This document shows positions 19,161-37,486 of a stretch of 64,000 bases of DNA, in pieces. This stretch comes from Bacillota bacterium (GTDB lineage: Bacteria; Bacillota; Clostridia; Ch29): the NCBI GenBank assembly GCA_013540605.1, contig JABVCK010000001.1:124001-188000 (forward strand), read 5' to 3'. The first letter of the stretch is position 1. Each line of letters begins with the position of its first letter. The notes under the pieces were generated by a model. The model was not told the origin of the DNA and did not search any database. It saw only the letters and a list, made by a program, of their open reading frames with translations. A program made the translations under genes and the position numbers.

Positions 19161-20363
19161 CTATGCACATTCAAGCTTAACCCGGATTTCGAAGTTTTTG
19201 TCATTTCGATATCCATAGGCCCTGCGCTTTATATTCTTAATCTTGTGATTAAACCCTTCTGTGGGTCCGTTGCTGATTTTGCAATCATAATAATTAAGAA
19301 TGTATTCCCGCCAGTGGTCAAGGGTTCGATTGAAGGCCTGAAGTTCAGGTATCTGGCTTTCCTCAACAAGTTCCTTGAAGTAGTCAATAAAGGCTGCGGC
19401 ATTTTCCTTGGTATTAATCTTGAAGAACTTGCGGAATTCTTCCTTTAAGGCAAAACATTCACCAAGCTTTGGGTATTCATCACATACTTTAAAAAGCCGG
19501 TTCATATCATCCGCCTCAAGGTCTTCGAAGTTTTTAAGCAATGCCCAACGAATGCCGAATACTTTTTGTTTATCGTCTTCTTCCTTCCTGACTTTATTTT
19601 GAATGTGCTTTCGTGCATCATCTACCTGGTCATGAAGCGACTGTGATAGATGAAACCTGTCGATAACCGGTTTAGCATTGGGAAGAGTTTCAAGAACCCC
19701 GTTACAATAGCCCCTGCTCATATCCATGGCAACAGCTTCGATATTATTCCTGAACTCTTCGCTCAGGGATTGGAAAAAGGTTATCACATCTTCCTTGGTT
19801 CTTCCCCTGAACATGGCTATTACCGAATGGGTTTCCAGGTCATATACCGTGGTGTTATAATTGTGACCCTTCCGCCTTGCCAGATCGTCTATGCCTATGA
19901 ACCTTACTTTTTTAGATGGCCTTGAATTAATTTCTTCCTGGGCATAGTAGTTGAAAATCCTTTGGCATTTGCCATGACTGATACCTTCAAGCAGACATAC
20001 ATTTTCTATCGTGTTTTGTTTGCAAAGGTTATAAATGTATATTTCATAAGGTATCGTCTGGCGCTGGTATTCCCTTATAAAGTTGTATCTTAAATCAAAT
20101 GGATGGTCAGGGTCGCATTTACATTCCAATCGGAATATCGGCAACACCAAGACGGTTTTTGTGCCCCATATTGGTAGATGCATATAGTCCTGAACCCTTA
20201 CATCATGTACTGTTTCCGTTGTGCTGCCACATTTCGGGCAAATCCCTGAAATGGTCGATGGTATAGCGCAAACAGTAAATATGCCATTATTTACATAGGT
20301 ATGAATAACCTTTAAGCCTTGAACTCCAAGCATTTGTGCTGTAAAATCAATTACGTTATTCAT
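19161..20363 (-). CDS. ISL3-family transposase
   Basis: A 400-residue DDE transposase. An N-terminal zinc-ribbon contains CPKCG and a C-x-C pair. The catalytic core shows IGIDDLARRKGHNY, AVAMDMSRGY, PVIDRFHLSQ and, near the end, GPTEGFNHKIKNIKRRAYGYRN. These are hallmarks of the ISL3 family. The frame is intact and full length, so it may be active. The ribosome site AAGGGGG lies within a long hairpin just upstream of the ATG at 20363 (see the hairpin entry), a likely brake on translation from read-through messages. Confidence 0.9.
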   Translation of the reverse strand: MNNVIDFTAQMLGVQGLKVIHTYVNNGIFTVCAIPSTISGICPKCGSTTETVHDVRVQDYMHLPIWGTKTVLVLPIFRLECKCDPDHPFDLRYNFIREYQRQTIPYEIYIYNLCKQNTIENVCLLEGISHGKCQRIFNYYAQEEINSRPSKKVRFIGIDDLARRKGHNYNTTVYDLETHSVIAMFRGRTKEDVITFFQSLSEEFRNNIEAVAMDMSRGYCNGVLETLPNAKPVIDRFHLSQSLHDQVDDARKHIQNKVRKEEDDKQKVFGIRWALLKNFEDLEADDMNRLFKVCDEYPKLGECFALKEEFRKFFKINTKENAAAFIDYFKELVEESQIPELQAFNRTLDHWREYILNYYDCKISNGPTEGFNHKIKNIKRRAYGYRNDKNFEIRVKLECA

Positions 20364-22409: not shown

Positions 22410-24401
22410 GTGACCATGGGCGGACGAAGTTTCTTGATGAAGGAGTCGGAAATATATGAAAACTGGAGGAAATTCATCCGGACGGGACAGTACAGTTCAG
22501 ACGTTATACGCCCTGTGATTGCAGAGTCATGGAACATAAGCAAAGCAGCAGGTATTGACCCTTTCAAACCTATAGAATCCAACAGGTTATCCAACAGAGA
22601 ACTGAAAAAAAGGCAGGAAAACTCCTCGCAGGTTGTCGCGGTCTCACTGCCCTTTATGGAAAGTATATATAAGATTGTTGCAAAATCTGAATTTGCGGTC
22701 AGGCTGACCGACAGGGACGGCTATATACTTGTTGCCCTCGGGGAAGAGGATACCCTTGGGAAAATGACCGCACTGAACATAAACCCGGGGGAATGCTGCA
22801 AAGAAGAGTATATCGGGACAAATGCAATCGGTATAGCGCTGAGGACCGGGGAACCGGTTCAGGTGTTTGCCGCGGAGCACTACAACTATAACTACCACAG
22901 CTGGACAACATCTTCATGTCCAATTAAAGATAAAAACGGGGAAATTGTTGCGGTTCTCGGCATGACCGGTTCTTTCCAAAAAGTGCACTCCCACACCCTT
23001 GGCATGGTCATAGCGGCCGCAGAAGCCATAGAAAGCCAGATCCGGCTGGAAGAAAGCAACAGAAAGCTCGCCATCGCAAATCAACATTTCATGGCTATCA
23101 TGGAGTCAATCTCCGAAGGGCTGATCTGCATAGATAATAACCTTATAGTGACGGATATAAACCAGAACGCAAGAAAGATGCTGAACTTACAGAGCAAAGA
23201 CCCGGTAGGGGAGTCCCTTGCGAAGCTTTTCGGCGGTTACAGCAAAAGGATCAAAGACGTTCTCAGAAAGGGCAAGGGCTATAACGAGGAAGAAGTTATA
23301 ATTGACCTTCCTAAGGGTACTCTGAGGTGCGTCATACTGACGACGCCGATAAAAAGAGATAATTCCAGCGTTGACGGTGCGGTGATCACCCTGAGGGAAG
23401 GGAAATCCGTTCATAAACTCGTAAATAAAATAGTAGGCGCGGAAGCAAGGTTTGTGTTCGATGATATTATAGGTAAAAGCCCGGAGATAATTGAAGCCAA
23501 GAAACAGGCTATGTTCGCTTCGCTGAACTCAAACACGGTGCTGCTGACCGGCGAGAGCGGAACGGGCAAGGAGCTGTTTGCCCAGGCGATTCATAATGCG
23601 AGCGAACGCAAGGATGGCCCCTTCGTATTCATTAACTGCGGGGCTATTCCAAGGGAACTGATTGCCAGCGAATTGTTTGGCTATGTTGAGGGCGCTTTTA
23701 CCGGCGCGAGAAGGGGAGGGCACCCGGGGAAATTCGAGTTGGCCGACGGCGGTACGATATTCCTGGACGAAATCGGGGACATGCCCCTTGATACGCAGGC
23801 GAACCTCCTCAGGGTTCTGGAGACAAAAGAGGTGGTAAGGATTGGGAGCCACAAGATAATCCCTGTGGATGTCAGAGTAGTGGCTGCGACGCACAAGCAC
23901 CTGGAGGAAGAGGTTGAACGGGGAAATTTCAGGCAGGACCTGTTCTTCCGGTTGAACGTAATCCGCATCCGGATTCCTCCCCTCAGGGAAAGGGAGGAGG
24001 ATATAAGGATTTTTATAGACAAACTGATAGATAGATACTCTGAACAATTGGGAAAGCCCGTCAGGAATGTGAGCAACTCCTACTATAACATATTGGAAGG
24101 CTATGCATGGCCGGGCAATGTGAGGGAGATGCAGAATATAATCAACCAGTCCATAATGATGATGGAGGGCAGCGAACTGACCGCAAAAAATATCCCGGAT
24201 AATATAAAAAAGAAAGCGGTGCCGTACCGCGAAAAAGCACATGCGGGTGTGAGGACGCTTTCAGAGATTGAAGAGAGGGCGATACTGGAAACGCTTGAGT
24301 TCAATAACGGGAACATTACCAGCGCGGCAAAATCCCTGGGTATAGGCAGAAACACCCTTTACCGGAAGATGAAAAAGTACGATATCGCTTATACTCCGTA
24401 A
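22410..24401 (+). CDS. Sigma-54-dependent enhancer-binding regulator (AcoR-like)
   Basis: A 663-residue activator of sigma-54 RNA polymerase. A GAF-type sensor region covers about 60-210 and a PAS-like domain about 220-330. The AAA+ core follows, with Walker A GESGTGKE, the sigma-54-contact loop GAFTGA and the arginine-finger region. It ends in a Fis-type helix-turn-helix ([23 protein letters not shown]). A GTG at 22410 and an ATG at 22416 are both possible. A terminator and then a near-consensus -24/-12 promoter follow, directly before the antiporter operon. Control of that operon is therefore a strong inference; the signal sensed is unknown. Confidence 0.9.
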
Positions 24402-24564: not shown

Positions 24565-24581
24565 TTGGCTTGAGTTTTGCA
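24565..24581 (+). promoter_or_regulatory. Sigma-54 (-24/-12) promoter for the antiporter operon
   Basis: TTGGCTTGAGTTTTGCA has the invariant GG at 24567-24568 and GC at 24579-24580 with exactly ten bases between, and matches TGGC..TTGC well. It lies between the regulator's terminator and the first antiporter gene, predicting a start near 24592. A small hairpin (24619-24632) lies in the leader. Confidence 0.75.
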
Positions 24582-24698: not shown

Positions 24699-25208
24699 AT
24701 GGGTAAATACAGCAAAGGTCGAATTGCATTCTGGAGTATAGCCCTTCTGATATTCTGGGTTGCAGTGTCGGGCAAAATCAAGATCCATGATATTATGCTG
24801 GCGGTTCTGATTATAGGTTTCACTTTATATATGGCAAGCAGAATGAACCCGGAGACTTTCCGGCTGCGAGGAGCGGGGCCCCCGCCGGTGAAAAGGATGT
24901 TTTATGCGTTGCTATACGTGATCTGCATAACCATAGAGATCATAAAGGCAAACGTGCACGTTGCCTCGGTAATCCTATCGCCCAGACTGAAGATCAGCCC
25001 GGGTTTGGTCAGGTACAGGCACGGATTCAGCAGCAGATTTAGTTCTTTCCTATACGCCAATTCGATTACGCTGACGCCGGGTACGCTTACGGTAGGTCTG
25101 GATGAGGAAGATGTAACCGTTCACGTGCTCGAAGAAAGCAACAAAGATGCCTTGGCGGACTGGAAAGTAGAGAGGGTGCTCAAGAAAATGGAGGTAAAGG
25201 AAAAATGA
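24699..25208 (+). CDS. mrpE: Mrp/Mbh-type antiporter subunit E
   Basis: A 169-residue MrpE/MnhE/MbhA-family protein, first gene of the operon. Two or three N-terminal hydrophobic helices are followed by a soluble tail with the family's SITLTPGTLTV and VHVLEES stretch. It is an accessory subunit of multi-subunit cation/proton antiporters (CPA3) in the cytoplasmic membrane. GCGGAG lies about ten bases before the ATG at 24699. The stop overlaps the next start by four bases. Confidence 0.85.
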   Translation: MGKYSKGRIAFWSIALLIFWVAVSGKIKIHDIMLAVLIIGFTLYMASRMNPETFRLRGAGPPPVKRMFYALLYVICITIEIIKANVHVASVILSPRLKISPGLVRYRHGFSSRFSSFLYANSITLTPGTLTVGLDEEDVTVHVLEESNKDALADWKVERVLKKMEVKEK

Positions 25209-25471
25209 CAACGATACTGGTAGGTGCATGTCTTTACTTAAGTATAACTATTTTCCTCTGCCTTTACAGGGGGGTAAAGGGTCCCACCCTCGCGGACAGG
25301 ATTGTTGCGATCAATGTGATAGGCACCAAGACCGTTGTTGTGATCGCCATAGTCTCGTACGCGATTAACGAGAGGTACTTTCTGGACGTTGCCCTTGTAT
25401 ACGCGCTGATCAGTTTCCTGGCAACGGTTTATATATCGAAGTCCAGCGGTATTATGCAGGGAGGGAGATAG
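25205..25471 (+). CDS. mrpF: Mrp/Mbh-type antiporter subunit F
   Basis: An 88-residue three-helix membrane protein of the MrpF/MnhF/MbhB family. The typical motif GPTLADRIVAINVIGTK is present, followed by VALVYALISFLAT. It starts at an ATGA overlap with mrpE and ends one base before mrpG, so the three are translated as a block. It is a structural subunit of the complex. Confidence 0.9.
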   Translation: MTTILVGACLYLSITIFLCLYRGVKGPTLADRIVAINVIGTKTVVVIAIVSYAINERYFLDVALVYALISFLATVYISKSSGIMQGGR

Positions 25472-25472
25472 G

Positions 25473-25802
25473 ATGAGCGTTCTGGTGGCAGTATTCATGG
25501 CAGCAGGTTTATTCTTTTTTACGGCAGGGACCATCGGCCTTCTGAGGCTTCCCGATGTATACACCCGGACCCACGGGGCTACAAAATGTGATACCCTGGG
25601 GGCGCTGCTCTGCATAATCGCCCTGATGATTTATAACGGCTTGTCGCTGGGTATTGTGAAACTGCTGCTACTGATGGTGTTTTTATGGATAGCCAACCCC
25701 ACCGCCGCGCACCTGATCACAAAAGCGGCAATGGCATCGGGAGTCAGGGTGTGCGGGAGCGGAACGGGTGACGAGGAGGAGCAAAATGAGCGTATTGTTT
25801 GA
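25473..25802 (+). CDS. mrpG: Mrp/Mbh-type antiporter subunit G
   Basis: A 109-residue MrpG/MnhG/MbhC-family protein with three hydrophobic helices. Family-typical features are GTIGLLRLPDVYTRTHGATKCDTLG near the N terminus (read here in two parts: GLLRLPDVYTR and HGATKCDTLG) and NPTAAHLITKAA. The C-terminal tail overlaps the next gene by 17 bases. A structural subunit of the antiporter. Confidence 0.88.
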   Translation: MSVLVAVFMAAGLFFFTAGTIGLLRLPDVYTRTHGATKCDTLGALLCIIALMIYNGLSLGIVKLLLLMVFLWIANPTAAHLITKAAMASGVRVCGSGTGDEEEQNERIV

Positions 25803-26028
25803 GGTCTCGCTTCTTACCTTTCTTATAGTGTGTGCCATAATGGTAGCCTTTATTAAGGATATGATGGCTGCTATCGTCATATTTGCTTCCTACAGCCTGG
25901 TCATGGCTATGCTGTGGCAAATGCTTGACGCTCCGGATATTGCGATCACAGAGGCCGCAGTCGGAGCGGGATTGACCACAATTTTGTTTATCGGAGCGAT
26001 TAAAAAAACAGGGAGAGCAAAAAAATGA
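25786..26028 (+). CDS. MbhD-like (DUF4040) antiporter subunit, MrpA C-terminal part
   Basis: An 80-residue, three-helix protein with the DUF4040 pattern DAPDIAITEAAVGAGLTT. In ordinary Mrp antiporters this segment is part of the large MrpA subunit; in Mbh hydrogenases and Mbh-like complexes it is a separate MbhD. GAGGAG precedes the ATG at 25786, and an in-frame start six codons earlier is rejected. The separate gene points to the Mbh-type layout. Confidence 0.85.
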   Translation: MSVLFEVSLLTFLIVCAIMVAFIKDMMAAIVIFASYSLVMAMLWQMLDAPDIAITEAAVGAGLTTILFIGAIKKTGRAKK

Positions 26029-26309
26029 AACGCATCACAGTGGGCTTATTGCTGGGGGCGATGCTCGTCGTACTGTTATCTACAGTTTCGGAGATGCCGC
26101 AGTTCGGCAGCCCTTCAAATCCAACCCATAACTATGTAAGCAGCAGGTATGTCGGCAAATCAGCGCTGGAAACCGGTGCAGTTAACGTTGTAACGGGCAT
26201 CATACTGGACTACAGGGCCTTTGATACCTTTGGGGAGGCCACGGTCATATTCGTTGCGGCGCTGGCCGTTGTTTCGGTACTGGCGAGGGGAGGGCTAAGC
26301 GGTGATTGA
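26025..26309 (+). CDS. MbhE-like antiporter subunit, MrpA C-terminal part
   Basis: A 94-residue membrane protein equivalent to MbhE and to the far C terminus of MrpA. The pattern YVGKSALETGAVNVVTGIILDYRAFDT (seen here as ETGAVNVVTGI and DYRAFDTFGE) and VLARGG are characteristic. It starts at an ATGA overlap with the DUF4040 gene and overlaps the next by eight bases. It completes the split MrpA C-terminal module. Confidence 0.82.
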   Translation: MKRITVGLLLGAMLVVLLSTVSEMPQFGSPSNPTHNYVSSRYVGKSALETGAVNVVTGIILDYRAFDTFGEATVIFVAALAVVSVLARGGLSGD

Positions 26310-26715
26310 AGACAATGATATTATACTTAAGCAGGCTGCAAGAGTGCTGACCCCCTTCATACTGATCTACGGAATATATATAACCTTTCATGGCCATCTT
26401 ACCCCTGGAGGAGGATTTTCCGGAGGTACTGTGATAGCCTCGTCCCTGATACTGAACAGGATATCCAGCGGAAACCGCGGATCCGGCCCGGAAATCGACC
26501 GGATGATGGGGATAGCCAGTATTGCGCTGGTGTGTTACGGATTGATTAAAGCCATGGGGACTTTCTTCCCCGACTTTACGCATAGGGTGCTGCCGAGGGG
26601 AATTCCCGGAGATCTGTTAAGCGGGGGCGCTATACTGCCGCTGAATATTGCCGTCGGCTTCGTAGTGGCATGCGTTATGTATATATTCTTTTGCCTGATA
26701 GGGGAGGAAGCATAG
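26302..26715 (+). CDS. mrpB: Mrp/Mbh-type antiporter subunit B
   Basis: A 137-residue MrpB/MnhB/MbhF-family protein with about four helices. The motif GHLTPGGGFSGGTVIASS is diagnostic. It begins with a GTG at 26302 inside the end of the preceding gene, behind GGAGGG. It is a membrane subunit adjoining the proton/cation channel parts. Confidence 0.9.
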   Translation: MIEDNDIILKQAARVLTPFILIYGIYITFHGHLTPGGGFSGGTVIASSLILNRISSGNRGSGPEIDRMMGIASIALVCYGLIKAMGTFFPDFTHRVLPRGIPGDLLSGGAILPLNIAVGFVVACVMYIFFCLIGEEA

Positions 26716-27105
26716 ATGAGCAGTGTAGTTCACCTGGCGAACAATTATATATATATTGCTTCTTTCACGCTGTTTCTCATAGGCTTTTCCATCCTGCTGC
26801 TGAACAGCAATTTGATAAAAAAGATCATCGGCATGAATATTATGGACACTTCGGTTTTCCTGCTGTTTATATCCCAGGGCTATATCAAGGGCAGGAAAGC
26901 CCCGATACTGGAAGGAGGGGGAAGCGTCAACCCCGCGGAGTATGTCAACCCCGTGCCTTCTGCCCTGATCCTTACGGGAATAGTGGTTGCAGTCAGCGTC
27001 ACTGCCTTTTTGCTGGCTTTGACCGTAAAGCTGTACAATCTGTACGGTACCGTTGATATGGACGAGATAATCGAGATAAGGAGAAGCGTTGATGGAAACA
27101 GTTAG
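26716..27105 (+). CDS. mrpC: Mrp/Mbh-type antiporter subunit C (NuoK-like)
   Basis: A 129-residue, three-helix protein homologous to MrpC/MbhG and to complex I NuoK. GMNIMDTSVFLLFISQGY and VNPVPSALILTGIVV are typical; the NVNP-like region ALILTGIVV is conserved across NuoK relatives. It starts directly after the mrpB stop (GGGGAGGAAGCATAG before the ATG) and overlaps mrpD by 14 bases. Confidence 0.9.
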   Translation: MSSVVHLANNYIYIASFTLFLIGFSILLLNSNLIKKIIGMNIMDTSVFLLFISQGYIKGRKAPILEGGGSVNPAEYVNPVPSALILTGIVVAVSVTAFLLALTVKLYNLYGTVDMDEIIEIRRSVDGNS

Positions 27106-28570
27106 GAATTTCCCTGTTCTTATAATATATATTTTTTTTATAGGGTCTTTCATACAGCCGCTAGTCAGAAACGTGAGGATATCTCTTTTGCTGACCGTGG
27201 CTATCTCGGCCGTTTCATCCGCCGCATCCGCTGCGGTAGTGTATTATGTACGGACTAACGGAGATTTTTTGTTCGACGTGGCGCCATGGAGCGCGCCCTG
27301 GGGGATCGAACTGAGCATAGGTACCCTTGAAGCGTTTGTTATTGCGGTCATCTGCAGCGTCGGTACCTTGATTTCCATATACGGCATAGGAATGGTCGAA
27401 AAGGAAATACCGGCCAGAAACATAAAAATATACAACGCGCTGTTCCTGGCGCTGTTGGGCTCGATGACCGGTATCGCTGCAACAGGGGACATATTCAACA
27501 TGTATGTGTTTATTGAAATAACGTCGATTACGGCGTGCGGGATAATATCGGTGAAGGATGACAAAAAAAGCATCGAAGCAACGGTAAAATATCTGGTCTA
27601 TAGTTCCCTGGCATCCGGATGCATACTTTTGGCAATAGCGCTGCTTTACGGGATCACAGGGAATCTGAATATCAGGTATATTCACCACCATTTAACCGAG
27701 GTTATGTACCTGTACCCCAGGAATGTGCTGCTGGCATCCTGCCTGATAATAGTGGGCTTTGGCCTGAAAGCGGCAATGTTCCCGCTGCATTTCTGGCTGC
27801 CTGATGCCCATTCGTCAGCGCCCACTACCTCCAGCGCCGTACTGTCCGCCCTGGTATTGAAGGCATATTCGGTAGGATTGATCAAAATACTGACGGGAGT
27901 GTTTGGCATCGTGGTAATGTCACTGCTTCCGCTGAAGACAATCCTTATGTATCTCGGTTCAGGGGCTGTGCTGATAGGGTCGCTGCTTGCCATGACCCAG
28001 TCCAGAATAAAGAGGATGCTTGCATACTCCAGTGTTGTGCAGATGGGTTACATCTTTCTGGCGCTTTCGCTGTTCAACAGGACGGGTTTTACGGGGGCGC
28101 TGTTCCAGATATTGAACCACGCATTGACAAAAACATTATTATTTCTTTCAGCAGGGAATATAAAGTACTATACGGGTAAAGAGAGTATTGAACAACTGAA
28201 GGGAATTGGCTATAGAATGCCCGTTACAATGGCAGTGTTTTCGGTTGGAGCCCTGTCCATGGTCGGCCTGCCGATGACCAGCGGGTTTAACAGCAAGTGG
28301 TATATCGGCTATGGGGCTATAGAGGCGGGCAAGATAGGAGTACTCATCGTGATAGTGATCAGTTCGCTGCTGAATGCGGCGTACTATCTTCCTGTGGTAG
28401 TGTCTGCGTTTTTCAGACGGCCGTCGCCGGGGGACGAAATCCAGCAGCCGGTGAATCTGCCCTGGTTCACGTCGGTTCCCATGATTGTAATGGCTGTTTT
28501 GATCATAGTATTGGGGTTGTATCCGGACCCGGTGATCAATTTCATCTCCGGTGCGGCAAAAATCTTTTAA
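27092..28570 (+). CDS. mrpD: MrpD/MbhH-type antiporter-like subunit (first of four)
   Basis: A 492-residue, about 14-helix protein of the NuoL/M/N-MrpA/D family. Ion-pathway residues are present: Glu142 in FIEITS, Lys226 in GLKAAMFP, and Lys402 in GFNSKWY. The WLPDAHSSAPT and NHALTKTLLF segments are conserved. It should carry proton or sodium translocation. The start is the ATG at 27092; an in-frame TTG one codon before also exists. Three further paralogues follow, which is more than a normal Mrp operon has. Confidence 0.88.
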   Translation: METVRNFPVLIIYIFFIGSFIQPLVRNVRISLLLTVAISAVSSAASAAVVYYVRTNGDFLFDVAPWSAPWGIELSIGTLEAFVIAVICSVGTLISIYGIGMVEKEIPARNIKIYNALFLALLGSMTGIAATGDIFNMYVFIEITSITACGIISVKDDKKSIEATVKYLVYSSLASGCILLAIALLYGITGNLNIRYIHHHLTEVMYLYPRNVLLASCLIIVGFGLKAAMFPLHFWLPDAHSSAPTTSSAVLSALVLKAYSVGLIKILTGVFGIVVMSLLPLKTILMYLGSGAVLIGSLLAMTQSRIKRMLAYSSVVQMGYIFLALSLFNRTGFTGALFQILNHALTKTLLFLSAGNIKYYTGKESIEQLKGIGYRMPVTMAVFSVGALSMVGLPMTSGFNSKWYIGYGAIEAGKIGVLIVIVISSLLNAAYYLPVVVSAFFRRPSPGDEIQQPVNLPWFTSVPMIVMAVLIIVLGLYPDPVINFISGAAKIF

Positions 28571-28582
28571 GGCGGGGGTCCT

Positions 28583-30049
28583 ATGGAAAAAACTATGTGG
28601 CTGATCTATCTACCTGTTCTGCTGCCTGTATTGGGGCTTGTTCTCATGATTAGGGCCAGCAAGAAGTATATTTTGATGGAGAGGGTTTTCAGCATAACTA
28701 GCGCTGTCCTTGTCTTTATAATAAACGTGGGCGTAATTTACTGGGTATCAAAGGGGTACACCGTTTCGGTACCTCCGCTAAAGGTCAACAACTTTCTTCA
28801 GATACATTTCCAGGTAGACCGTTTGGGAGCCCTGTTTGCCTTTCTTGCCTCGCTGATGTGGATATTTGTAACCGTATACTCCTTTGGGTACATGCGGGGC
28901 CATGCAAAGCAGTTAAGGTATTTCGCCTTTTTCACCGTCTGCTTGGGGATTACCATGGGCATTGCCTACTCAGCCAATTTGTTTACGCTGTACATTTTCT
29001 ACGAACTGCTTACCGTGGCCACATATCCCCTTGTGGTGCATAAGGAGGATAAAAAAGCCCTTGACGCCGGTAAAAAGTATCTCATATATTCCTTCTCAGG
29101 AGCAGCCCTTATACTTATCGGGATGATTCTGGTTTATGCTTTAACCGGGACCCTGGATTTTGTACCGGGTGGAGGAACTGCTTTCAGAGGCGCCTTGCCT
29201 ATGGGAGTGCCGGTGGCCGCATATTTCGTTCTGTTCTTCGTGGGGTTTGGAGTAAAATCGGCCCTGGTGCCGCTGCATTCCTGGCTCCCGGCGGCTATGG
29301 TCGCCCCAACGCCCGTCAGCGCTTTGCTTCACGCCGTGGCCGTTGTCAAGGCGGGCGTGTTCTCGATGACGAGGGCTGTCTATTATGTATTCGGACCCGA
29401 AGCAATAAAAGGATTTAATGCTTACTTTGTCTATATCGTGGCCTTTTCCATACTCTTCGGTTCGGTCCTTGCCATAGGGCAGACCAACCTGAAAAGGCGT
29501 CTGGCCTATTCGACAATAAGCCAGCTCGGTTATGTGCTGCTCGGGGTACTGCTGGTCAACAGCCGCGGCTATACGGGAGGCGTCCTTCACATAGTGAACC
29601 ATGGATTGATAAAGATCGTGCTGTTCTTATGCGCAGGCGCCATAATAACCCGGACCGGTAAGACTGAGATCAACCAGCTGAAGGGGATAGGAAAGCAGAT
29701 GCCTGTAACAATGGGGATTTTTGCCCTCGCTTCGGTATGCCTCGTAGGGATACCGCCGACAAACGGTTTTGTGAGCAAATGGTACCTATCGTTGGGAAGC
29801 CTGGATGCGGGACAGCCGCTCCTTGTCGCCGTACTTCTGTTAAGCGCGCTGCTGACCGCAGCATACCTTTTTCCGATTGTGGGAATTGCCTTTTTTACAA
29901 AGGGAGACAGGGAAATACAGGGGGTTGAGGAAGCACCCAGGAGCATGCTGTATCCGCTGGTGGCGCTTGCTTTCCTTATGCTTGCATCCGGCGCTTTTGC
30001 CGACAGGATAATAGATTTCCTGGCCGGCGGACTGGAAGAAGCGTTTTAA
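28583..30049 (+). CDS. NuoL/M/N-type antiporter-like subunit (second of four)
   Basis: A 488-residue polytopic protein of the same family, starting 12 bases after the first with GGCGGGGG. It keeps the key acidic residue (IFYELLT), the TM7 lysine (GVKSALVPLH), WLPAAMVAPTPVSALLHA (here split WLPAAM and APTPVSALLHA), NHGLIKIVLF and the late lysine in GFVSKWY. All expected translocation residues are present, so it is probably a working channel. Most similar by eye to MrpD/NuoM types. Confidence 0.87.
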   Translation: MEKTMWLIYLPVLLPVLGLVLMIRASKKYILMERVFSITSAVLVFIINVGVIYWVSKGYTVSVPPLKVNNFLQIHFQVDRLGALFAFLASLMWIFVTVYSFGYMRGHAKQLRYFAFFTVCLGITMGIAYSANLFTLYIFYELLTVATYPLVVHKEDKKALDAGKKYLIYSFSGAALILIGMILVYALTGTLDFVPGGGTAFRGALPMGVPVAAYFVLFFVGFGVKSALVPLHSWLPAAMVAPTPVSALLHAVAVVKAGVFSMTRAVYYVFGPEAIKGFNAYFVYIVAFSILFGSVLAIGQTNLKRRLAYSTISQLGYVLLGVLLVNSRGYTGGVLHIVNHGLIKIVLFLCAGAIITRTGKTEINQLKGIGKQMPVTMGIFALASVCLVGIPPTNGFVSKWYLSLGSLDAGQPLLVAVLLLSALLTAAYLFPIVGIAFFTKGDREIQGVEEAPRSMLYPLVALAFLMLASGAFADRIIDFLAGGLEEAF

Positions 30050-30058
30050 AAGGGGGGA

Positions 30059-31507
30059 ATGGCTTTGGAGAATATGCTGCCCTTGGCAATAATAGTTGTG
30101 CCTTTCATTGCCGCACTGCTATCCTTTGCAGCCGGAAAAATAGACAAGAGGATGAGGGACGGCCTTGTTTTTGCCGCTTCAGCCGGGGCGTTCGTAGGCG
30201 TTATAAGCCTTATCCGGATGGTGCTGCAGGGAAGTATATACACATTCAAGACATACGGTCTGCTGTTCAGGGTTGATGAAATGTCGGTTATTCTGGCATT
30301 TGTTACGTCTACGCTATGGCTTATGTCTATCGTGTATTCGACAAAGTACATGGAGGGAAAGAACAACCCGGACAGGTATTATGCATCATTGCTGTTAACA
30401 CTGGCCGGATGCCTTGGCGTCGCCTTTAGCGGCGGGGTTATGGAGCTGTTTATTTTCTTTGAGATGGCCTCGCTTGTACCCTATGTGCTTATACTCCACA
30501 GCCACAGTTCGCAGGCCCATAAAGCTGCTTCCAAATACCTGTACATGAGTATAGTAGGCGGTTTTCTTATGTTTTACGGTGTTGTTGTGACTTATTGGGT
30601 CAAGGAGACCGGGGATTTCTCGGTTATCGGCAGTGGAGAGGCCTTGCCTGTTACCGCACTGGTTGCCTTTCTTATAAGTTTCGGGATTAAGGGCGGGATA
30701 GTGCCTCTGCATTCCTGGCTGCCGGATGCCCATTCGGTATCCCCGTCTTCGGTCAGCTGTCTGCTTTCAGGGATAACAGTCAAAGTGGGCATGTTCGGGT
30801 TTATCAAACTGGTGTACTATATAAGTCCCGCATATTTTTCGGAGAATTCGGTTTGGGTGGATGTTCTGCTGTGGATGGCCGTCATCTCAATAATGTTGGG
30901 GTCAATAGTCGCCATAGGGCAAAAAAGAATCAAAAGAATGCTTGCCTATTCCACCATTAGCCAGATGGGCTATATACTGTTGGGAATTGCATTGATGACG
31001 CACCGGGGGCTGGTTGGAGCCCTGTACCATTTTTTCGCCCACTCCCTTATGAAGGGAAGCCTCTTCATGATAGCCGGTGCGGTTAAACACAAAAAGGATA
31101 TTGTGTACCTGGAGGATTTCAGGGGATTAGGGCGGGAAATGCCGATAACTATGATGTGCTACACCGTAGCTGCCCTATCGATGGTCGGCATTCCTCTGTT
31201 CAGCGGCTTTACAAGCAAATGGTATTTAGGACTGGGGAGCCTTGATGCCGGTAAGCCGTTTTACCTTGGCGTGCTTCTGTTGAGCAGCCTTTTAAACGTA
31301 ATCTATTTTTTCCCGCCGGCAATAAATGCCTTTTTCCCAAAGGATACGGTGCACAATAAAAAGGGAGCATTGAGGATGGATGAACTGCACCCGCTGATGC
31401 TGGTGCCTATCATGGCACTGATAGCCGGAGTAATATACGGGGGTATATTTGATAATTTTATGCTTGAACTGGCATCGAAGGCGACCGCTCGGATAATGAT
31501 CCGGTAG
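30059..31507 (+). CDS. NuoL/M/N-type antiporter-like subunit (third of four)
   Basis: A 482-residue paralogue with about 14 helices. It retains the acidic residue (IFFEMAS), the TM7 lysine (GIKGGIVPLH), WLPDAHSVSPSSVS, a variant AHSLMKGSLF in place of NHALxK, and the late lysine in GFTSKWY. AGGGGGG lies immediately before the ATG at 30059. It belongs to the same operon and presumably the same membrane complex. Confidence 0.87.
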   Translation: MALENMLPLAIIVVPFIAALLSFAAGKIDKRMRDGLVFAASAGAFVGVISLIRMVLQGSIYTFKTYGLLFRVDEMSVILAFVTSTLWLMSIVYSTKYMEGKNNPDRYYASLLLTLAGCLGVAFSGGVMELFIFFEMASLVPYVLILHSHSSQAHKAASKYLYMSIVGGFLMFYGVVVTYWVKETGDFSVIGSGEALPVTALVAFLISFGIKGGIVPLHSWLPDAHSVSPSSVSCLLSGITVKVGMFGFIKLVYYISPAYFSENSVWVDVLLWMAVISIMLGSIVAIGQKRIKRMLAYSTISQMGYILLGIALMTHRGLVGALYHFFAHSLMKGSLFMIAGAVKHKKDIVYLEDFRGLGREMPITMMCYTVAALSMVGIPLFSGFTSKWYLGLGSLDAGKPFYLGVLLLSSLLNVIYFFPPAINAFFPKDTVHNKKGALRMDELHPLMLVPIMALIAGVIYGGIFDNFMLELASKATARIMIR

Positions 31508-31534
31508 CTGTTTGCAGAAAAGGGGGTTAAGACC

Positions 31535-33772
31535 ATGTCAATGGGGATGTTTCTGGTTATATCGCTTGTGGCGCCGTGGCTAAGCGGCTTGACTATGTGG
31601 GGTCTGTTCAGGAATAATCCGAAAAAATCAGGGATTCTTTCTACGCTGGTCAGCTCCGGTATACTGTTGTCGGCTTTATCGTTATTCCAACGGGTCTACA
31701 GCGGAAATGCATCATATGAGGTCCACGGTTTTTTTACCGGGAGTATTCTTTTAAGCGTTACGCCTGTAGGCTATGCGTTCATAATTCTGACATCATTGGT
31801 CTGGCTGGCAGCTTCCGTTTTTTCAATAGTCTATATGCAGAAGAGCCATTATCAGGGACGGTTTTACCTGTTCTTCATGATAACCCTCGGTTCAACCCTT
31901 GGCGTTTTTGTTTCGGGAGATATGATAGCCTTCTTCACATTTTTCGAGATAATGTCCCTTGCGTCCTTCATGCTTGTGATACATGAACAGGACAGAGATG
32001 CTTTGGAAGCGGGGAAGCTGTATATTTTCATGTCGATATTCGGGAGCCTGATGGCGTTGATGGGGCTGTTCATGATCTACCACCATACGGGGACTCTCAG
32101 AATCGATGAATTGCATGGTGTTCTAAAGACCATGGGCGTTTCGGGATACGTGGCGTATTTCCTCATAACCCTTGGACTGGGTGTCAAAGCGGGGATTGTT
32201 CCCTTCCACGTTTGGCTTCCGAAAGCTCACCCGGTGGCGCCGTCTCCTGCAAGCGCGGTACTTTCCGGGATACTTTTGAAAACCGGCATATACGGAATAT
32301 TCCTGGCATCATATGTGCTGCTGGGTGTGGATGCTTCAATAGGAAAAGTTGTTGCGGTGCTGGGTGCGGTGACCATGATTATGGGTGCGGGATGCGCGGT
32401 AAAAAGCCGCAACTTTAAAGTACTGCTCGCATACAGTAGCATGAGCCAGATGGGCTACGTAGTCCTTGCCCTAGGCACTGCGGCTGCCCTGGAGGATGCA
32501 GGATTGCTGGGCTACACCGGCGGTATCTACCAGGCCATCAACCACGGGCTTTATGAGGCGATGCTGTTTCTTATTGCGGGCTACGTGTATCTCATCCGGG
32601 GCACGATAGATTTTAACGGTCTCAGCGGAATTATAAGGAAAGACAGGATAGCAGGCGTCTTCCTGCTGACAGGCCTTGCGGCAATATCGGGACTACCGGG
32701 CCTCAACGGTTTTATCGGAAAAACCCTTATACATGATGCGCTGCTCGAGGCATACCATAATAGTCACCATCTGTTATTCTGGGGCCTTGAAAAGGCGTTC
32801 ATCCTCGGGAGTTCTTTAACCTCAGCTTACTGCTTCCGTATAGCAGACGCGATGCGCGGCGGAGAGGAGAATAAGGAACAGGACCTGCCCGGTATAACCG
32901 GAGCCAGGACCTTGGTGTATGCATCCTTTGCCCTGCTGACGGGAGGTATTGTGTATACAGGACTTTTTTCCGACAGTGTGGTCAGCCTGCTAAAACCCGG
33001 ACTGCAGTCCCTTCACGGACATATGCCCGATATCTACAGCGCTTCGGCTCTACTGAGTCCCATTAAGGCATATATAATAGGCTTCGTCCTGTATATGATC
33101 GCAAGGTCGGGTTTGGAAGGAAAGATCGAGCGCCGGAGCAAGGAAGTCGATATTTTTGAAAGAATATCGCAGACGGTGCTTCATATGACGGGAAAGAAAC
33201 TGTTTGACGAAAAGTCGGTGAAAAAACCGTATGTTCTCTTCATGCACAGAATAAGGAGTTCCACGAGTATAATACACAGGTTATATGATTTAATAAAGGT
33301 AGCGATGATGACCGTTGTTAGAATAATTGGCGCCTTTTTTGTTGTTATGGACAGGGGCTTCAGCTTTGAAAGCAATATATACAACCCCGTTATAAAAGGT
33401 GTATACCGGTTCCTGAGCCGCCTGTTCGGCTGTGTGGATAAAGGCGTTGACTTTTTCTATACTTTCTTCACAAGTTTCCTGACCGGGATTTACCATAGAG
33501 ATGAAGAGGAAAACGAGGATGAGAACAAAGAAACGTTAATCATAAGGGAAAGGGCGGTCTTGTATAAAAAGTACAGGATTATAGTCCGTGAGATTGCCCA
33601 CGGCCACTTCCTGGAGGCCGGCAGAATGGTGAGAGGTTATTTCAGGGAAAAAGAGTACAGTATGAGCAACCTCAATGTAGGAGTTATTATATTTGCAGCA
33701 ATGGTGGTAGTATTCATGCTTATTTTCGTAATGTATGTTCCAATGCTTTCCAATGGTGCGGCGGTTTTTTAG
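31535..33772 (+). CDS. Large NuoL/MrpA-like antiporter subunit with long C-terminal extension (fourth of four)
   Basis: A 745-residue protein. Residues 1 to about 480 form the antiporter-like domain with FFEIMS, GVKAGIVPFH, WLPKAHPVAPSPASA and a variant GFIGKTL late lysine. The usual NHALxK segment reads NHGLYEA, so a conserved lysine is replaced by Glu. Residues from about 500 form an amphipathic, charged extension with one helix near 510, a charged stretch rich in Glu/Asp, and a final hydrophobic helix. This tail may act like the lateral helix of NuoL. It could stand in for the missing N-terminal part of MrpA. AAAGGGGG precedes the ATG. Confidence 0.83.
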   Translation: MSMGMFLVISLVAPWLSGLTMWGLFRNNPKKSGILSTLVSSGILLSALSLFQRVYSGNASYEVHGFFTGSILLSVTPVGYAFIILTSLVWLAASVFSIVYMQKSHYQGRFYLFFMITLGSTLGVFVSGDMIAFFTFFEIMSLASFMLVIHEQDRDALEAGKLYIFMSIFGSLMALMGLFMIYHHTGTLRIDELHGVLKTMGVSGYVAYFLITLGLGVKAGIVPFHVWLPKAHPVAPSPASAVLSGILLKTGIYGIFLASYVLLGVDASIGKVVAVLGAVTMIMGAGCAVKSRNFKVLLAYSSMSQMGYVVLALGTAAALEDAGLLGYTGGIYQAINHGLYEAMLFLIAGYVYLIRGTIDFNGLSGIIRKDRIAGVFLLTGLAAISGLPGLNGFIGKTLIHDALLEAYHNSHHLLFWGLEKAFILGSSLTSAYCFRIADAMRGGEENKEQDLPGITGARTLVYASFALLTGGIVYTGLFSDSVVSLLKPGLQSLHGHMPDIYSASALLSPIKAYIIGFVLYMIARSGLEGKIERRSKEVDIFERISQTVLHMTGKKLFDEKSVKKPYVLFMHRIRSSTSIIHRLYDLIKVAMMTVVRIIGAFFVVMDRGFSFESNIYNPVIKGVYRFLSRLFGCVDKGVDFFYTFFTSFLTGIYHRDEEENEDENKETLIIRERAVLYKKYRIIVREIAHGHFLEAGRMVRGYFREKEYSMSNLNVGVIIFAAMVVVFMLIFVMYVPMLSNGAAVF

Positions 33773-34047
33773 GCTACAGATCGCAGTCGGCAGATCGCAG
33801 ATCGCAGGTACTAGGTGCTAGTTGGCAGATGTTAGATCACAGATCACAGTTCCCAAGGCTATGTCCTTGGGTCTTTTAATGCGCTTTAGCATTACCTTAT
33901 ACTCTGTCATCTGATAACTGGCAACTGGCTACTGATGATGGTGTGTCCCATTATTTTGCACACAATGTCCTCTTTAATAAAACTGAGAAGGATATTGGGC
34001 TTATTCGAAGAATTATATAATGAAATCGTGTGCTGGAAGGTGACATC
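33773..34047. repeat. Intergenic stretch with AGATCGCAG-type short repeats
   Basis: Between the antiporter operon and the division cluster. At 33775-33850 degenerate copies of CAGATCGCAG and AGATCACAG occur in tandem, followed by a terminator hairpin and then CTGGCAACTGGCTACT-like low-complexity sequence. Similar words reappear at 40290-40335. No gene is evident. Confidence 0.5.
33852..33876 (+). terminator. Terminator of the antiporter operon
   Basis: CCCAAGG (33852-33858), a six-base loop, CCTTGGG (33865-33871), then TCTTTT. A short but stable GC-rich hairpin about 80 bases after the last antiporter gene. Confidence 0.6.
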
Positions 34048-35259
34048 ATGAAAAATGCTAGACCGGCTAAGAAGGGAAAAGGCTATATCAGGATAGCGAT
34101 AATCGCAATCATGCTCGTTCTGACAGTAAAAGCATTGTTGGGTGTCAGGAGCAATGCCATTGAGACCGTACTTCTCGAATACGGTGAAGTGAAGATAATG
34201 GAACAGGCAAAGGGTGTTGTTGTCAGGATGGAGAAAACCGTGAAAGCGCCTATCTCCGGTAGAATTGCCTATATTGTTCCCGAAAATGTTAAGGTTCCTG
34301 TAGGCACAAAGGTTCTGGAGATTAAGAGGGACAGGATTGATGATGAAACCCTCGCCAGATATAATGAGATCAATAAAAGGATACAGGCTTTGGGGGATTT
34401 GGACAGTGAGGCTGCCCCGGACAATAGCACGGGTAATGTCATGAAGTATCTTGCCAACATAAGCCGTTTAATACATGAAGGCAGCTTGCTGGCAGTGTAT
34501 TACGAAAAGGAGCACCTGGTGAGAGAATTGAACCGGAGTACTGCCTTAGCTTCTTCCGCAAACGAGTTGAAATTGCTGTTACAGGAAAAAGACAAAATCG
34601 AAAAGGAGATGGATGGTGGAGTTAAGGCAGAGTATACGCAGTTTCCAGCGGTTCCCGTGTATGCCCTGGATGGATACGAAGAAGTGCTGACGGTAGAGAG
34701 CATTAAAGAAATAAATCCGGCGGAGTTAAGCCCGCCTGCTGTTTTGCGGATAGATCTGAATAAAGGAGTAGAAGCAGGGGAAACTGTTCTAAAACTGGTA
34801 GACAACCGCAAGTGGTATATTGTATCCCAGCTCAGCAGCGGTTTTGGAGAAGATATAAAGGAGAACAAGAATGTAAGTATTGAGTTCCCGGGAGATGATA
34901 CTGTAACGGTAAAAGGCCGGGTAATCGGTTCCAAAACAACAGACCAGGGAACTGTTGTGTATATTGAAATAAAAGATTATGTACCGGGCATTTTTGAGCA
35001 AAGATTTGTTGATATAATATTAATTAAAGAAAGGTACAGCGGGTTTGTTGTTCCGCAGAAAGCGATAATTGAGAAGGGCAATGAGACTGAGGTCCTGGTA
35101 CTGCAGGAGGGAAAGGTGCGAAGCAAGAAGGTTGCAGTTAAGGCAAGCGATGGGATCAATGCTGTGGTAGAAAGCGTACAGAATGGTCCGGCGCTGAAAC
35201 TGTATGACCAGGTTATAATCAACTGGGAAAGGTTCGGAGGTAATGAAGGTGAGTATTAG
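34048..35259 (+). CDS. HlyD-like membrane fusion-type protein of the division cluster
   Basis: A 403-residue protein with one N-terminal membrane helix (about 14-34). A lipoyl/biotinyl-like region follows (VVVRMEKTVKAPISGRIAYI), then a coiled-coil-like helical part (about 105-195) and beta-rich domains including VDIILIKERYSGFVVPQKAI. This is the HlyD-like arrangement, but no export ATPase or permease is nearby. It lies immediately upstream of ylmE-sepF-ylmG-divIVA, so an envelope or division-related role is possible. GGAAGG precedes the ATG at 34048. Function not established. Confidence 0.7.
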   Translation: MKNARPAKKGKGYIRIAIIAIMLVLTVKALLGVRSNAIETVLLEYGEVKIMEQAKGVVVRMEKTVKAPISGRIAYIVPENVKVPVGTKVLEIKRDRIDDETLARYNEINKRIQALGDLDSEAAPDNSTGNVMKYLANISRLIHEGSLLAVYYEKEHLVRELNRSTALASSANELKLLLQEKDKIEKEMDGGVKAEYTQFPAVPVYALDGYEEVLTVESIKEINPAELSPPAVLRIDLNKGVEAGETVLKLVDNRKWYIVSQLSSGFGEDIKENKNVSIEFPGDDTVTVKGRVIGSKTTDQGTVVYIEIKDYVPGIFEQRFVDIILIKERYSGFVVPQKAIIEKGNETEVLVLQEGKVRSKKVAVKASDGINAVVESVQNGPALKLYDQVIINWERFGGNEGEY

Positions 35260-35941
35260 GAGCAACATACAGGAGATCGAATATAGAATAGCAAAAGCCG
35301 CTTCGATGGCGGGCAGGAGCAGGGACGAAATAAAGCTGGTAGGGGTAACGAAAACCGTTGGCATCGAAACAATCAAAGAAGCAATAGAGGCAGGTATTAA
35401 TGTTATAGGAGAAAACAGAGTGCAGGAAATGGAAGAAAAGTACGGAAAACTCCTTGACTATCCGCTGGAATGGCATCTGATAGGACACCTGCAGAGCAAT
35501 AAGGTAAAATATATCGTTGACAAGGTTGACCTGATCCATTCAATAGACAGGATGTCGGTTGTCGAAGAGATAGAAAAACGGGCGGCCGGTATTGACAGAA
35601 GGGTGGATGTTCTGCTCCAGGTGAATGTATCAGGGGAAGAGACCAAATTCGGCATTCCACCTGAAAAATTGATGGGATTTATCGACAGGGCAAGGCAGTG
35701 TAAATTCATGAACATAAAAGGTCTAATGACCATTGCTCCGTATACCGAGGATCCGGAAACGGTAAGGCCTGTGTTCAGAAAATTGCATGAAATCTTTATG
35801 GAACTGAAGGAAAAGAAGCTGGATGGAGTAAGTATGGAATACCTTTCCATGGGTATGACGGGAGATTTCGAAGTTGCGATTGAAGAGGGGGCAAACATAG
35901 TAAGGATAGGATCGGGAATATTCGGAGAGAGAAAGCTGTAA
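35249..35941 (+). CDS. ylmE: YggS/YlmE-family pyridoxal-phosphate homeostasis protein
   Basis: A 230-residue PLP-binding TIM-barrel protein of the YggS/YlmE/PROSC family. The PLP-lysine region VGVTKTV, then GENRVQE, WHLIGHLQSNK and MSMGMTGDFEVAI are all present. It is thought to buffer free PLP. I prefer the GTG at 35249 because GGAGG ends eight bases before it; the ATG at 35243 has a two-base spacing. It overlaps the end of the HlyD-like gene and precedes sepF. Confidence 0.9.
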   Translation: MSIRSNIQEIEYRIAKAASMAGRSRDEIKLVGVTKTVGIETIKEAIEAGINVIGENRVQEMEEKYGKLLDYPLEWHLIGHLQSNKVKYIVDKVDLIHSIDRMSVVEEIEKRAAGIDRRVDVLLQVNVSGEETKFGIPPEKLMGFIDRARQCKFMNIKGLMTIAPYTEDPETVRPVFRKLHEIFMELKEKKLDGVSMEYLSMGMTGDFEVAIEEGANIVRIGSGIFGERKL

Positions 35942-35954
35942 AGGAGAGATGACT

Positions 35955-36383
35955 GTGAAAGGAAACCTCTGGGATAGGATTTTGGACTATTTTGGGCTTA
36001 ATAACGACGGGGAACAGAAAGAGGAGGACCAAACGGTTTATGAGCAACCCTATCCCCTTTCGAAAAAAAGGGGCAAAGTCCTCGACATACATACTGCCTC
36101 CCAGGTGAAAATGGTAATCTATCAGCCTTCAAGCTTTGACCATACTTCAGAAATATGCGATAATTTAAAACAAAGGAAGCCTATCATAGTGAATCTGGAG
36201 AACGTTGAAGGGGAGGTTGCCCGGCGTATACTGGATTTTCTGAGCGGAGCGGTTTACGCACTGGATGGGAATCTGCACAAAATATCAGGAGGAATTTTCC
36301 TTGCGGCGCCCAGCAACGTTGAAATCTCCGACAATCTTAAGCAAGAATTGAAGGATAAATTTATTTTTAAATGGCAAAAATAG
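35955..36383 (+). CDS. sepF: Cell division protein SepF
   Basis: A 142-residue SepF. The N-terminal amphipathic helix (GNLWDRILDYFGL) would bind the membrane, a linker follows, and the C-terminal globular domain contains VVN-type IVNLENVEGEVARRILDFLSG and the conserved FLAAPSNVE. SepF tethers FtsZ to the membrane and organises the septum. The GTG at 35955 is eight bases after AAGGAG and is preferred over the ATG at 35949. Confidence 0.92.
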   Translation: MKGNLWDRILDYFGLNNDGEQKEEDQTVYEQPYPLSKKRGKVLDIHTASQVKMVIYQPSSFDHTSEICDNLKQRKPIIVNLENVEGEVARRILDFLSGAVYALDGNLHKISGGIFLAAPSNVEISDNLKQELKDKFIFKWQK

Positions 36384-36405
36384 GTTTGAGATAAGGAGGT
36401 AAGCC

Positions 36406-36702
36406 ATGGTAAGACTGAATTGGGTTCTGAACATGTCATTGCGTTATTTTTTTAATACTATAGAACTGCTGGTACTGGCGCGGATTATTCTTTCCTGGGT
36501 AAGCCCCGGGTATAATAACCCAATATCACGTTTTATATATAACATAACTGAGCCAATACTGGCGCCCTTTCGCAGGCTTTTGGAGCGCAGCCCGTTCGGT
36601 GGCGGAATGATTGATTTTTCTCCCATTTTGGCGATTCTATTCATAAGAATTGTGGTTCAACCGCTGATGTTCTATTTGGTAAGGATTATTACAGCCTTTT
36701 AA
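36406..36702 (+). CDS. ylmG: YggT/YlmG family membrane protein
   Basis: A 98-residue protein with two membrane helices flanking the family motif SWVSPGYNNPISRFIYNITEPILAPFRR (visible as NPISRFIYNITEP and APFRRLL). YlmG relatives occur beside sepF and divIVA in Gram-positive bacteria and are linked to division or envelope organisation. AAGGAGG precedes the ATG. Confidence 0.9.
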   Translation: MVRLNWVLNMSLRYFFNTIELLVLARIILSWVSPGYNNPISRFIYNITEPILAPFRRLLERSPFGGGMIDFSPILAILFIRIVVQPLMFYLVRIITAF

Positions 36703-36724
36703 AATCAGAATTGGAGGTGCCGGC

Positions 36725-37180
36725 ATGATAACTCCGCTGGAGATTCAAAACAAACAGTTTGCAAAAAAGATTAGGGGATATGACGAGGGCCAGGTTGACG
36801 ATTTCCTGGACAGGCTTACCGAAGATTATGAAAATCTGTACCGCGAAAACGCGAATCTAAAGGATAGGCTGCGGGTTCTAGAGGATAAACTCCAGCACTA
36901 CTCTGACATGGAGGCATCACTCCAGAATGCATTGATCATGGCGCAGAATACTGCCGAAGAAGCCACCAAAACTGCGCATGATAAGGGGAGACTCATTATT
37001 GAGCAAGCTGAGGAAGAAGCAAAGAGAATAATTGAAAGATCATATAAAAAGGTGGAAGATATAGAAAACCAGTACCAGGAAATGAAGCGCCAGGTGTACA
37101 TATTCAGAACCAGGTTCAAAACGCTGCTGGAGGCCCAGCTTGAAACGGTGGTTACCCTTTGCGAGCAGTTCGATGAATAG
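36725..37180 (+). CDS. divIVA: DivIVA-domain protein
   Basis: A 151-residue DivIVA relative. The N-terminal membrane-curvature-sensing domain reads ITPLEIQNKQFAKKIRGYDEGQVDDFLD, quoted here as ITPLEIQNKQF and GYDEGQVDDFLD. A long coiled coil (about 35-135) follows. DivIVA recruits division or polarity factors to curved membrane at septa and poles. GGAGGTG lies before the ATG at 36725. It closes the division cluster; a sigma-A promoter and T-box follow. Confidence 0.93.
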   Translation: MITPLEIQNKQFAKKIRGYDEGQVDDFLDRLTEDYENLYRENANLKDRLRVLEDKLQHYSDMEASLQNALIMAQNTAEEATKTAHDKGRLIIEQAEEEAKRIIERSYKKVEDIENQYQEMKRQVYIFRTRFKTLLEAQLETVVTLCEQFDE

Positions 37181-37186
37181 TATTTA

Positions 37187-37215
37187 TTGACTAAGGTGAA
37201 GCTTTATAATATAAT
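37187..37215 (+). promoter_or_regulatory. Sigma-A promoter of the ileS T-box transcript
   Basis: TTGACT (37187-37192), a 17-base spacer, TATAAT (37210-37215). A second TATAAT at 37205 is too close to the -35 box. Transcription should start near 37222, giving a leader of about 265 bases. Confidence 0.8.
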
Positions 37216-37224
37216 TCTACTATG

Positions 37225-37457
37225 TACCTATATAGGAACAAATGCGATGAAAGGGACGAGTAATCGTTAGTCTAGCTTTAAGAGAGCCGGGGGCCGGTGC
37301 GACCCGGCAGCTGGAAACGGTGAAAATCACCCTTGAGCAGCAGGCTGAAATCAAGTAAGCCCGGCCGGGTTACCCGTTAAAGATGATATAAGTGGGTTGT
37401 ATTGCCAACCAGGGTGGTACCGCGGGTTTTCTCGTCCCTTATTCAGGGACTTTTTTA
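37225..37457 (+). ncRNA. Isoleucine T-box leader of ileS
   Basis: A tRNA-sensing T-box riboswitch. The conserved T-box AGGGTGGTACCGCG is at 37411-37424. Stem I closes with AAAGGG (about 37250) against CCCTT (37330-37334). Its specifier loop has the AGTA S-turn on the 5' side and ATC (Ile) at 37326-37328 on the 3' side. The terminator pairs GTCCCT (37434-37439) with AGGGAC (37445-37450), then seven T residues. Uncharged tRNA-Ile would favour the antiterminator and ileS expression. Confidence 0.93.
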
Positions 37458-37486
37458 TTTTCCTTAAATCAAATGGAGGTGCATTT

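Follow-up and report, generated by a model that had tools for sequence, protein, structure and literature searches.

The eleven genes at positions 24699-33772 of the stretch of DNA analysed here (the window, 64,000 nucleotides of contig JABVCK010000001.1 of a Bacillota bacterium) constitute a stand-alone group 3 Mrp antiporter operon, in which MrpA is split and extra MrpD-type subunits are present. All reading frames are open and every gene scores above its Pfam cut-off, the order being MrpE-F-G-MbhD-MbhE-B-C followed by four antiporter-like subunits of the NuoL/M/N type, which we call D1, D2, D3 and L (Table 1). The first ten genes belong to the families MNHE, MrpF_PhaF, PhaG_MnhG, MbhD, MbhE, MnhB, Oxidored_q2 and, three times, Proton_antipo_M, and a Proton_antipo_M domain is also found in the last one, L, with its 745 amino acids (aa). 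Overlaps occur at E/F, G/MbhD, MbhD/MbhE, MbhE/B and C/D1, the other neighbours being at most 27 nucleotides (nt) apart. An original prediction made from the letters of the DNA had described the order E-F-G-MbhD-MbhE-B-C-D plus three further NuoL/M/N-type genes; it is borne out by Pfam and by the gene coordinates, which agree with it, start-codon choice aside. It is a real and conserved operon for a known type of antiporter, uncommon in having four antiporter-like subunits, and does not represent a hydrogenase arm that has been orphaned. Of greater interest than the operon alone is the wider pattern around it, i.e. a variable number of antiporter-like subunits, adjacency to the genes of Rnf and clusters of Rnf with only D2 and L.

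We consider it quite probable, judging from sequence, that these genes encode a stand-alone group 3 Mrp-type (CPA3) cation/H+ antiporter, probably exchanging Na+ for H+, with MrpA divided among three genes (L, MbhD and MbhE) and with a four-subunit arm, serving the Rnf/Na+ economy of the cell. Composition and conservation of the operon can be read directly, as can the lack of an Mbh or complex I module and the presence of Rnf.

A group 3 Mrp with a split MrpA

Group 3 Mrp systems are defined by the absence of mrpA, mrpD being present and sometimes in several copies (PMC8415708), and some Mrp members carry two mrpD genes (PMC5703873). The window operon holds homologues of MrpB, C, D, E, F and G together and has no full-length mrpA. 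A Foldseek search with the AlphaFold2 model of L (mean pLDDT 75.8) returned MrpA chains as the three top matches, with NuoL behind them, and in alignments to PDB structures MbhE aligns to the C-terminal part of MrpA and MbhD to that of MBH; L, MbhD and MbhE thus represent a split MrpA.

The proton-path residues, a Glu in transmembrane helix (TM) 5 and Lys residues in TM7, TM8 and TM12, are kept in all four antiporter-like subunits and are almost invariant among relatives, so that D3 as a degenerated extra subunit is ruled out. Acidic residues of the cation path are conserved as well: E62 of MbhD (in 52 of 53 sequences) and D67/E71 of MbhE are the counterparts of MrpA E706, D792 and E796, whose roles in Mrp have been described (PMC7419157), and MrpF D31 is that of D29 on the cation path of the solved Mrp. 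Position 37 of MrpF, an Asp in the solved Mrp and in MBH, is Asn in 52 of 54 sequences of the lineage, and position 48 of MrpC, a His in 6z16 and MBH, is Phe in 47 of 53, the window being included in both cases; these two residues seem to mark the lineage as a whole rather than the window genome. MBS is also without the MrpC His; D35 of MrpF and that His are features of the solved group 1/2 complexes, and they do not define the Mrp family.

Among described systems, mrpEFGBB'CD of P. furiosus (PMC8415708) has the same E-F-G-(MbhD-MbhE)-B-C-D order, with neither a full-length mrpA nor a redox module, and the group 3 operons mrpCD1D2EFGAB of cyanobacteria and mrpFGBCDDAE of Microbacterium (PMC5703873) resemble the window in carrying MrpD-type genes in more than one copy. 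The difference lies in the antiporter-like subunits, four in the window including the MrpA-N-like L, one in P. furiosus and about two to three in the cyanobacteria and Microbacterium. The NPL-UPA2 member 'Unc8', with MrpEFGBBBCD and MrpDD (PMC6305446), shows the same core order, three genes annotated as MrpB and extra D genes, and its genome, as in our case, encodes Rnf and a Na+-type ATPase but no hydrogenase; unlike the window it has three D-type genes, two of them listed apart, and an A-type ATPase, and it belongs to another phylum.

Search for a hydrogenase or complex I module

The order E-F-G-MbhD-MbhE-B-C-D is identical to that of the membrane half of Mbh, and D44 of MrpC corresponds to D37 of MBH, as would be expected if the operon supplied the membrane part of an Mbh-like hydrogenase or of a complex I relative, with the redox part either encoded at another site or recently lost. 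This explanation is hardly credible. The operon contains no redox module, as had been predicted, and searches of the whole genome (3.35 Mb in 36 contigs, 99.55% complete) for the [NiFe] hydrogenase large subunit (PF00374), the NuoD-type 49-kDa subunit (PF00346) and the NuoH-type anchor (PF00146) came back empty, each of these families having been found by the same search in control genomes. A redox module like that of Mbh or complex I encoded elsewhere, which would have spoken against the original prediction, was thus not found in the genome, and a lost or distant hydrogenase or complex I module was rejected as a candidate on this genome-wide absence. With the NiFe large, NuoD/MbhL and NuoH/MbhM type subunits all absent genome-wide, the operon is not classed as an Mbh-type (group 4) hydrogenase; nor, being without NuoH and a redox arm, is it a complex I with an added NuoM (2M type). 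Furthermore, the redox-free operon is general across the phylum, and the product of its last gene resembles MrpA in fold. A lost hydrogenase is not, then, what the Mbh-like order signals, since stand-alone group 3 Mrp operons of the phylum have this arrangement as standard. The only PF00361 proteins of the genome are the four of the operon, and one of its seven Complex1_51K-type proteins is the RnfC of an intact rnfCDGEAB operon on contig C11.

With MBH and MBS of Pyrococcus (6cfw, 6u8y) the window operon shares the small subunits, MbhD and MbhE as separate genes, the acidic residue of MrpC and the gene order, but it has no hydrogenase or sulfur-reductase module and it carries three antiporter-like subunits beyond MbhH.

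Variable subunit number and the place of D3

The survey of genomes for the gene order that had been proposed beforehand comprised class-wide and phylum-wide searches, the regions around the matches being read with hidden Markov models built for the analysis (loci, genomes and families are numbered below with the prefixes L, G and f); the regions are the best matches to the subunit L, and the frequencies of tail types are therefore biased. The order is not a product of chance because it recurs in dozens of other genomes. A constant core, E-F-G-MbhD-MbhE-B-C-D1, is followed by a variable tail that consists of L alone (L102, L110, L113), of D2-L (more than 30 loci, e.g. L036-L043, L104, L111, L112, L114, L115 and L121-L138) or of genes that bring the antiporter-like subunits to four in all. 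The series D1-D2-D3-L is found in the window, in G056 from the same family (L035), whose D3 is 80% identical to that of the window over the main segment, and in G556 (L100) and G640 (L119), both from another order. A second four-subunit line (L046, L047, L049, L053, L109) has MbhE and B fused and a separate duplication of D2, and other arrangements are D1-L'-D2-L in L103 and a further one in L099. The ten-gene version with three antiporter-like subunits is ordinary in the phylum, and versions with two and four also occur. Two such subunits (cf. MrpA and MrpD), given as the norm in the original prediction, are indeed the rule for group 1/2 Mrp, but for this order and phylum three are normal, and D3 is the unusual part. 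Nor are the extra genes unlinked duplicates, being linked and conserved across loci.

In IQ-TREE phylogenies the D3 of the window, G056, G556 and G640 forms one clade with a D2-type gene of L108 (SH-aLRT 99.9, UFBoot 100). This clade joins, with moderate support (92.5/95), the single D2 of L104, L111, L114 and L132 and remains separate from the window's D2, which makes D2 and D3 old paralogues, D3 being shared with at least three other genomes. The trees rule out a recent local duplication of D2 as the source of D3, whose neighbours in them are the D3 of G556 and G640 and the separate D2b clade. The family member G022 has the Mrp operon without D3, most simply through loss of D3, a gain in the others being the alternative.

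In Mrp systems, proton passage through the MrpA-N/MrpD arm is coupled to the movement of cations where MrpC, MrpA-C and MrpD meet (PMC7419157). For the window complex we infer the ion specificity, the assembly of four subunits, the stoichiometry and the regulation as follows. The arm would most likely be ordered D1 (beside MrpC)-D2-D3-L, following the gene order, and protons passing through it would drive Na+ through the module made up of E, F, G, B, MbhD and MbhE, or the reverse. Because every D/L subunit has the full set of proton-path residues, the added subunit would most plausibly raise the H+:Na+ ratio, that is, act as a gear change. Were each arm subunit to carry one proton in every cycle, the form with four subunits would have a higher H+:Na+ exchange ratio than that with two, and it could then expel Na+ up a steeper gradient or when the pH difference is less favourable. 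Alternatively, the added subunit might lengthen the relay without an extra proton. Complex I, Mbh and Mrp share the question of how a driving force is converted into ion transport by antiporter-like subunits, and a natural series of two-, three- and four-subunit forms of a redox-free complex offers a direct test of one ion equivalent per subunit.

MrpA braces its complex by a lateral helix between TM15 and TM16 (PMC7419157). In the 2M complex I of Nitrospira and the Complex_I_3 of Ca. Manganitrophaceae, which resemble the window in having an added antiporter-like arm subunit with a proposed higher ion stoichiometry, this helix is reported to carry a 26-residue insert (PMC9040806); unlike the window operon, however, these complexes have a full redox module, and here no general lengthening of the helix is seen. 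Among the members of the window's family (n=3), L has 201 (window) and 219 (G056) residues between TM15 and TM16 with D3 versus 152 (G022) without it, and the brace helices, predicted at low confidence, measure some 95 versus 74 residues. Across loci the stretch measures 186-235 residues with two antiporter-like subunits, 55-219 with three and 99-219 with four; lengthening of the brace with each added subunit is thus not supported as a general rule and holds only in the window's family, with n=3. Operons with two subunits reach long stretches partly by 25-residue repeats. Internal repeats in L of 26 residues in G556 (L100) and of 32 in G056 (L035) each exceed all 200 shuffles, and none above the shuffles was found in the brace region of the window L. 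In L102, L104-L107 and L111-L114 the TM15-TM16 stretch of L was also seen to consist of 25-residue units (about seven turns of helix) repeated in tandem a varying number of times, and that of L043 has a 28-residue repeat.

It is conceivable, but distinctly less probable than the reading we favour, that D3 is a structural or specificity-tuning subunit, or part of an alternative assembly in which it replaces D2, and that the ion ratio is unchanged. Three-subunit lineages use either a D2a-type or a D2b/D3-type gene as their single D2, and the two could alternate within one organism; the failure of the lateral helix to scale with subunit number in general points the same way. Against this view stand the tandem position of D2 and D3 in one operon in four genomes and the longer TM15-TM16 stretch (n=3) that accompanies D3 in the window's own family. 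Some points do weigh against the Na+/H+ antiporter with a raised ratio that we favour: protons may enter Mrp via MrpA only (PMC7419157), so that an extra subunit need not add a proton; the length of the lateral helix of L does not track subunit number across loci; and N37 of MrpF and F48 of MrpC differ from the solved Mrp and MBH, and the ion specificity or path may differ too.

Rnf, the sodium context and regulation

In 16 related loci from nine families (f83, f87, f88, f129, f143, f144, f176, f191, f195), rnfCDGEAB immediately precedes mrpE in the same orientation (L102, L104, L110-L115, L121-L124, L129, L132, L148 and L149, rnf being complete as far as the regions extend), and in eight of the 16 the rnfB stop is 2-124 nt from mrpE. 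L103 was left out of this count, its Rnf being partial (RnfC and a fused RnfD; no RnfE, RnfA or RnfB was found). In two genomes of one genus, G384 and G565, rnfCDGEAB is followed by D2 and L only (L106:4359-13588 and L147:2080-11696), and MrpE was not found anywhere in either genome. Their D2 and L keep the Glu and the three Lys (E/K/K/K) intact and are 88% (D2) and 85% (L) identical between the two species; therefore, the pair seems to be under selection without the Mrp cation module. The complete Rnf of the window genome is unlinked to the Mrp operon, as it is in the class relatives, where the gene of a sigma-54 activator occupies the upstream position. No description of a contiguous Rnf-Mrp cluster was found in the literature searched, outside which most subscription journals lie, and we do not claim a first report. 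A functional pairing of Rnf with Mrp has been described for Methanosarcina as well as for syntrophic sulfate reducers (PMC2838876, PMC10553843). Methanosarcina acetivorans pairs Rnf with Mrp in an anaerobe, as here, but its Mrp is of group 1, with mrpABCDEFG forming a separate cluster (PMC2838876), whereas rnf and mrp are contiguous in the relatives' loci of our survey.

The original prediction had also envisaged coupling to an unlinked redox partner; the relatives now supply a concrete candidate, Rnf, physical coupling being only putative. Rnf would then serve as the redox engine, with the Mrp arm extending it for ion pumping and the two giving a redox-driven pump from separately encoded parts, a proposal to which the adjacency in 16 loci of nine families with its eight short gaps, the two genomes with Rnf and D2-L alone and the complete Rnf of the window genome all lend themselves. 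We nevertheless regard it as improbable: neither the window nor its class relatives have rnf linked to mrp, the activator standing in the upstream place, no attachment subunit was identified, and adjacency is equally explained by pairing through a shared Na+ gradient, as in Methanosarcina (PMC2838876, PMC10553843). Slightly less probable again is that Rnf and Mrp-type arms form one physical complex in the phylum, a redox-driven multi-barrel ion pump on the flavin/iron-sulfur engine of Rnf that would be analogous to complex I or Mbh; the number of barrels, two to four, would set its ion ratio and the window would hold the four-barrel arm.

As the stand-alone antiporter that we prefer, the exchanger would connect the Na+ and H+ gradients, Rnf acting as the primary pump next to an F-type ATPase with a Na+ motif. 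The c-subunit of this ATPase, encoded in the window genome, carries Gln in its first helix and ETTGIY in the second, which we take to be a Na+-binding motif. The Rnf-Mrp clusters, together with the Rnf-D2-L clusters that have no Mrp cation module, suggest that two major energy-conserving systems of anaerobes are linked in a way that has been little explored. On contig C19 of the window genome, adjoining the ordinary 89-aa F-type c-subunit gene with the Na+ motif, a gene at L145:5376-6278 encodes a protein of 301 aa that contains three c-type hairpins, the ion-binding Glu being replaced by Gln in the third; a second ATPase, of the A/V type, lies some 20 kb from it (L146).

The upstream sigma-54 activator probably switches the operon on, as its conserved position and the promoter motifs suggest. 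Counting the window, nine loci from six families have a homologue of the activator immediately before the Mrp operon, and a -24/-12 site scoring at least 9/12 precedes mrpE in 8 of the 9 loci with the activator versus 5 of the 45 without it (Fisher p = 1e-5). Over the whole window the sigma-54 consensus with two mismatches occurs at chance level, position and conservation being all that backs the window site.

Table 1. Features of the Mrp operon and its upstream region (window coordinates)
Feature	Position	Strand	Family and remarks	Proton-path residues
Sigma-54-dependent activator, probable operon regulator	22428..24401	+	GAF-PAS-AAA-HTH_8 (Pfam)	
Candidate sigma-54 (-24/-12) promoter, TGGCTTGAGTTTTGCA	24566..24581	+	10/12 consensus positions	
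MrpE	24699..25208	+	PF01899, 99.9 bits	
MrpF	25205..25471	+	PF04066; D31 = D29f; N37 where solved Mrp has D35f (PDB alignments)	
MrpG	25473..25802	+	PF03334	
MbhD (MrpA C-terminal part)	25768..26028	+	PF13244; E62 = E69 of MBH = E706 of MrpA (PDB alignment)	
MbhE (MrpA C-terminal part)	26025..26309	+	PF20501; D67, E71 = D792, E796 of MrpA (PDB alignments)	
MrpB / MbhF	26302..26715	+	PF04039	
MrpC / MbhG / NuoK type	26716..27105	+	PF00420; D44 as in MBH; F48 replaces a His (PDB alignments)	
D1, antiporter-like, MrpD/MbhH/NuoN type	27089..28570	+	PF00361; own clade in tree	E143, K227, K258, K403
D2, antiporter-like, MrpD/NuoM type	28583..30049	+	PF00361; D2a clade	E141, K225, K256, K399
D3, additional antiporter-like subunit	30059..31507	+	PF00361; D2b/D3 clade	E135, K211, K242, K387; map to MrpD of 6z16
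L, antiporter-like, MrpA-N/NuoL type, with lateral-helix region and TM16	31535..33772	+	PF00361; AlphaFold2 model	E138, K218, K249, K396
Candidate intrinsic terminator	33852..33871	+	7-bp stem, T-rich tail, 80 nt past last stop codon; terminator scan overall at chance level	

Upstream of the activator gene, a transposase-like open reading frame (ISL3 type by eye) occupies 19161-20363 on the minus strand. Downstream of the operon, the window encodes at 34030-40285 an HlyD-like, a YggS-type PLP, a SepF, a YggT-type and a DivIVA-type protein and IleS, and the same block from HlyD-like protein to IleS also follows the Mrp operon in G022 (L036).

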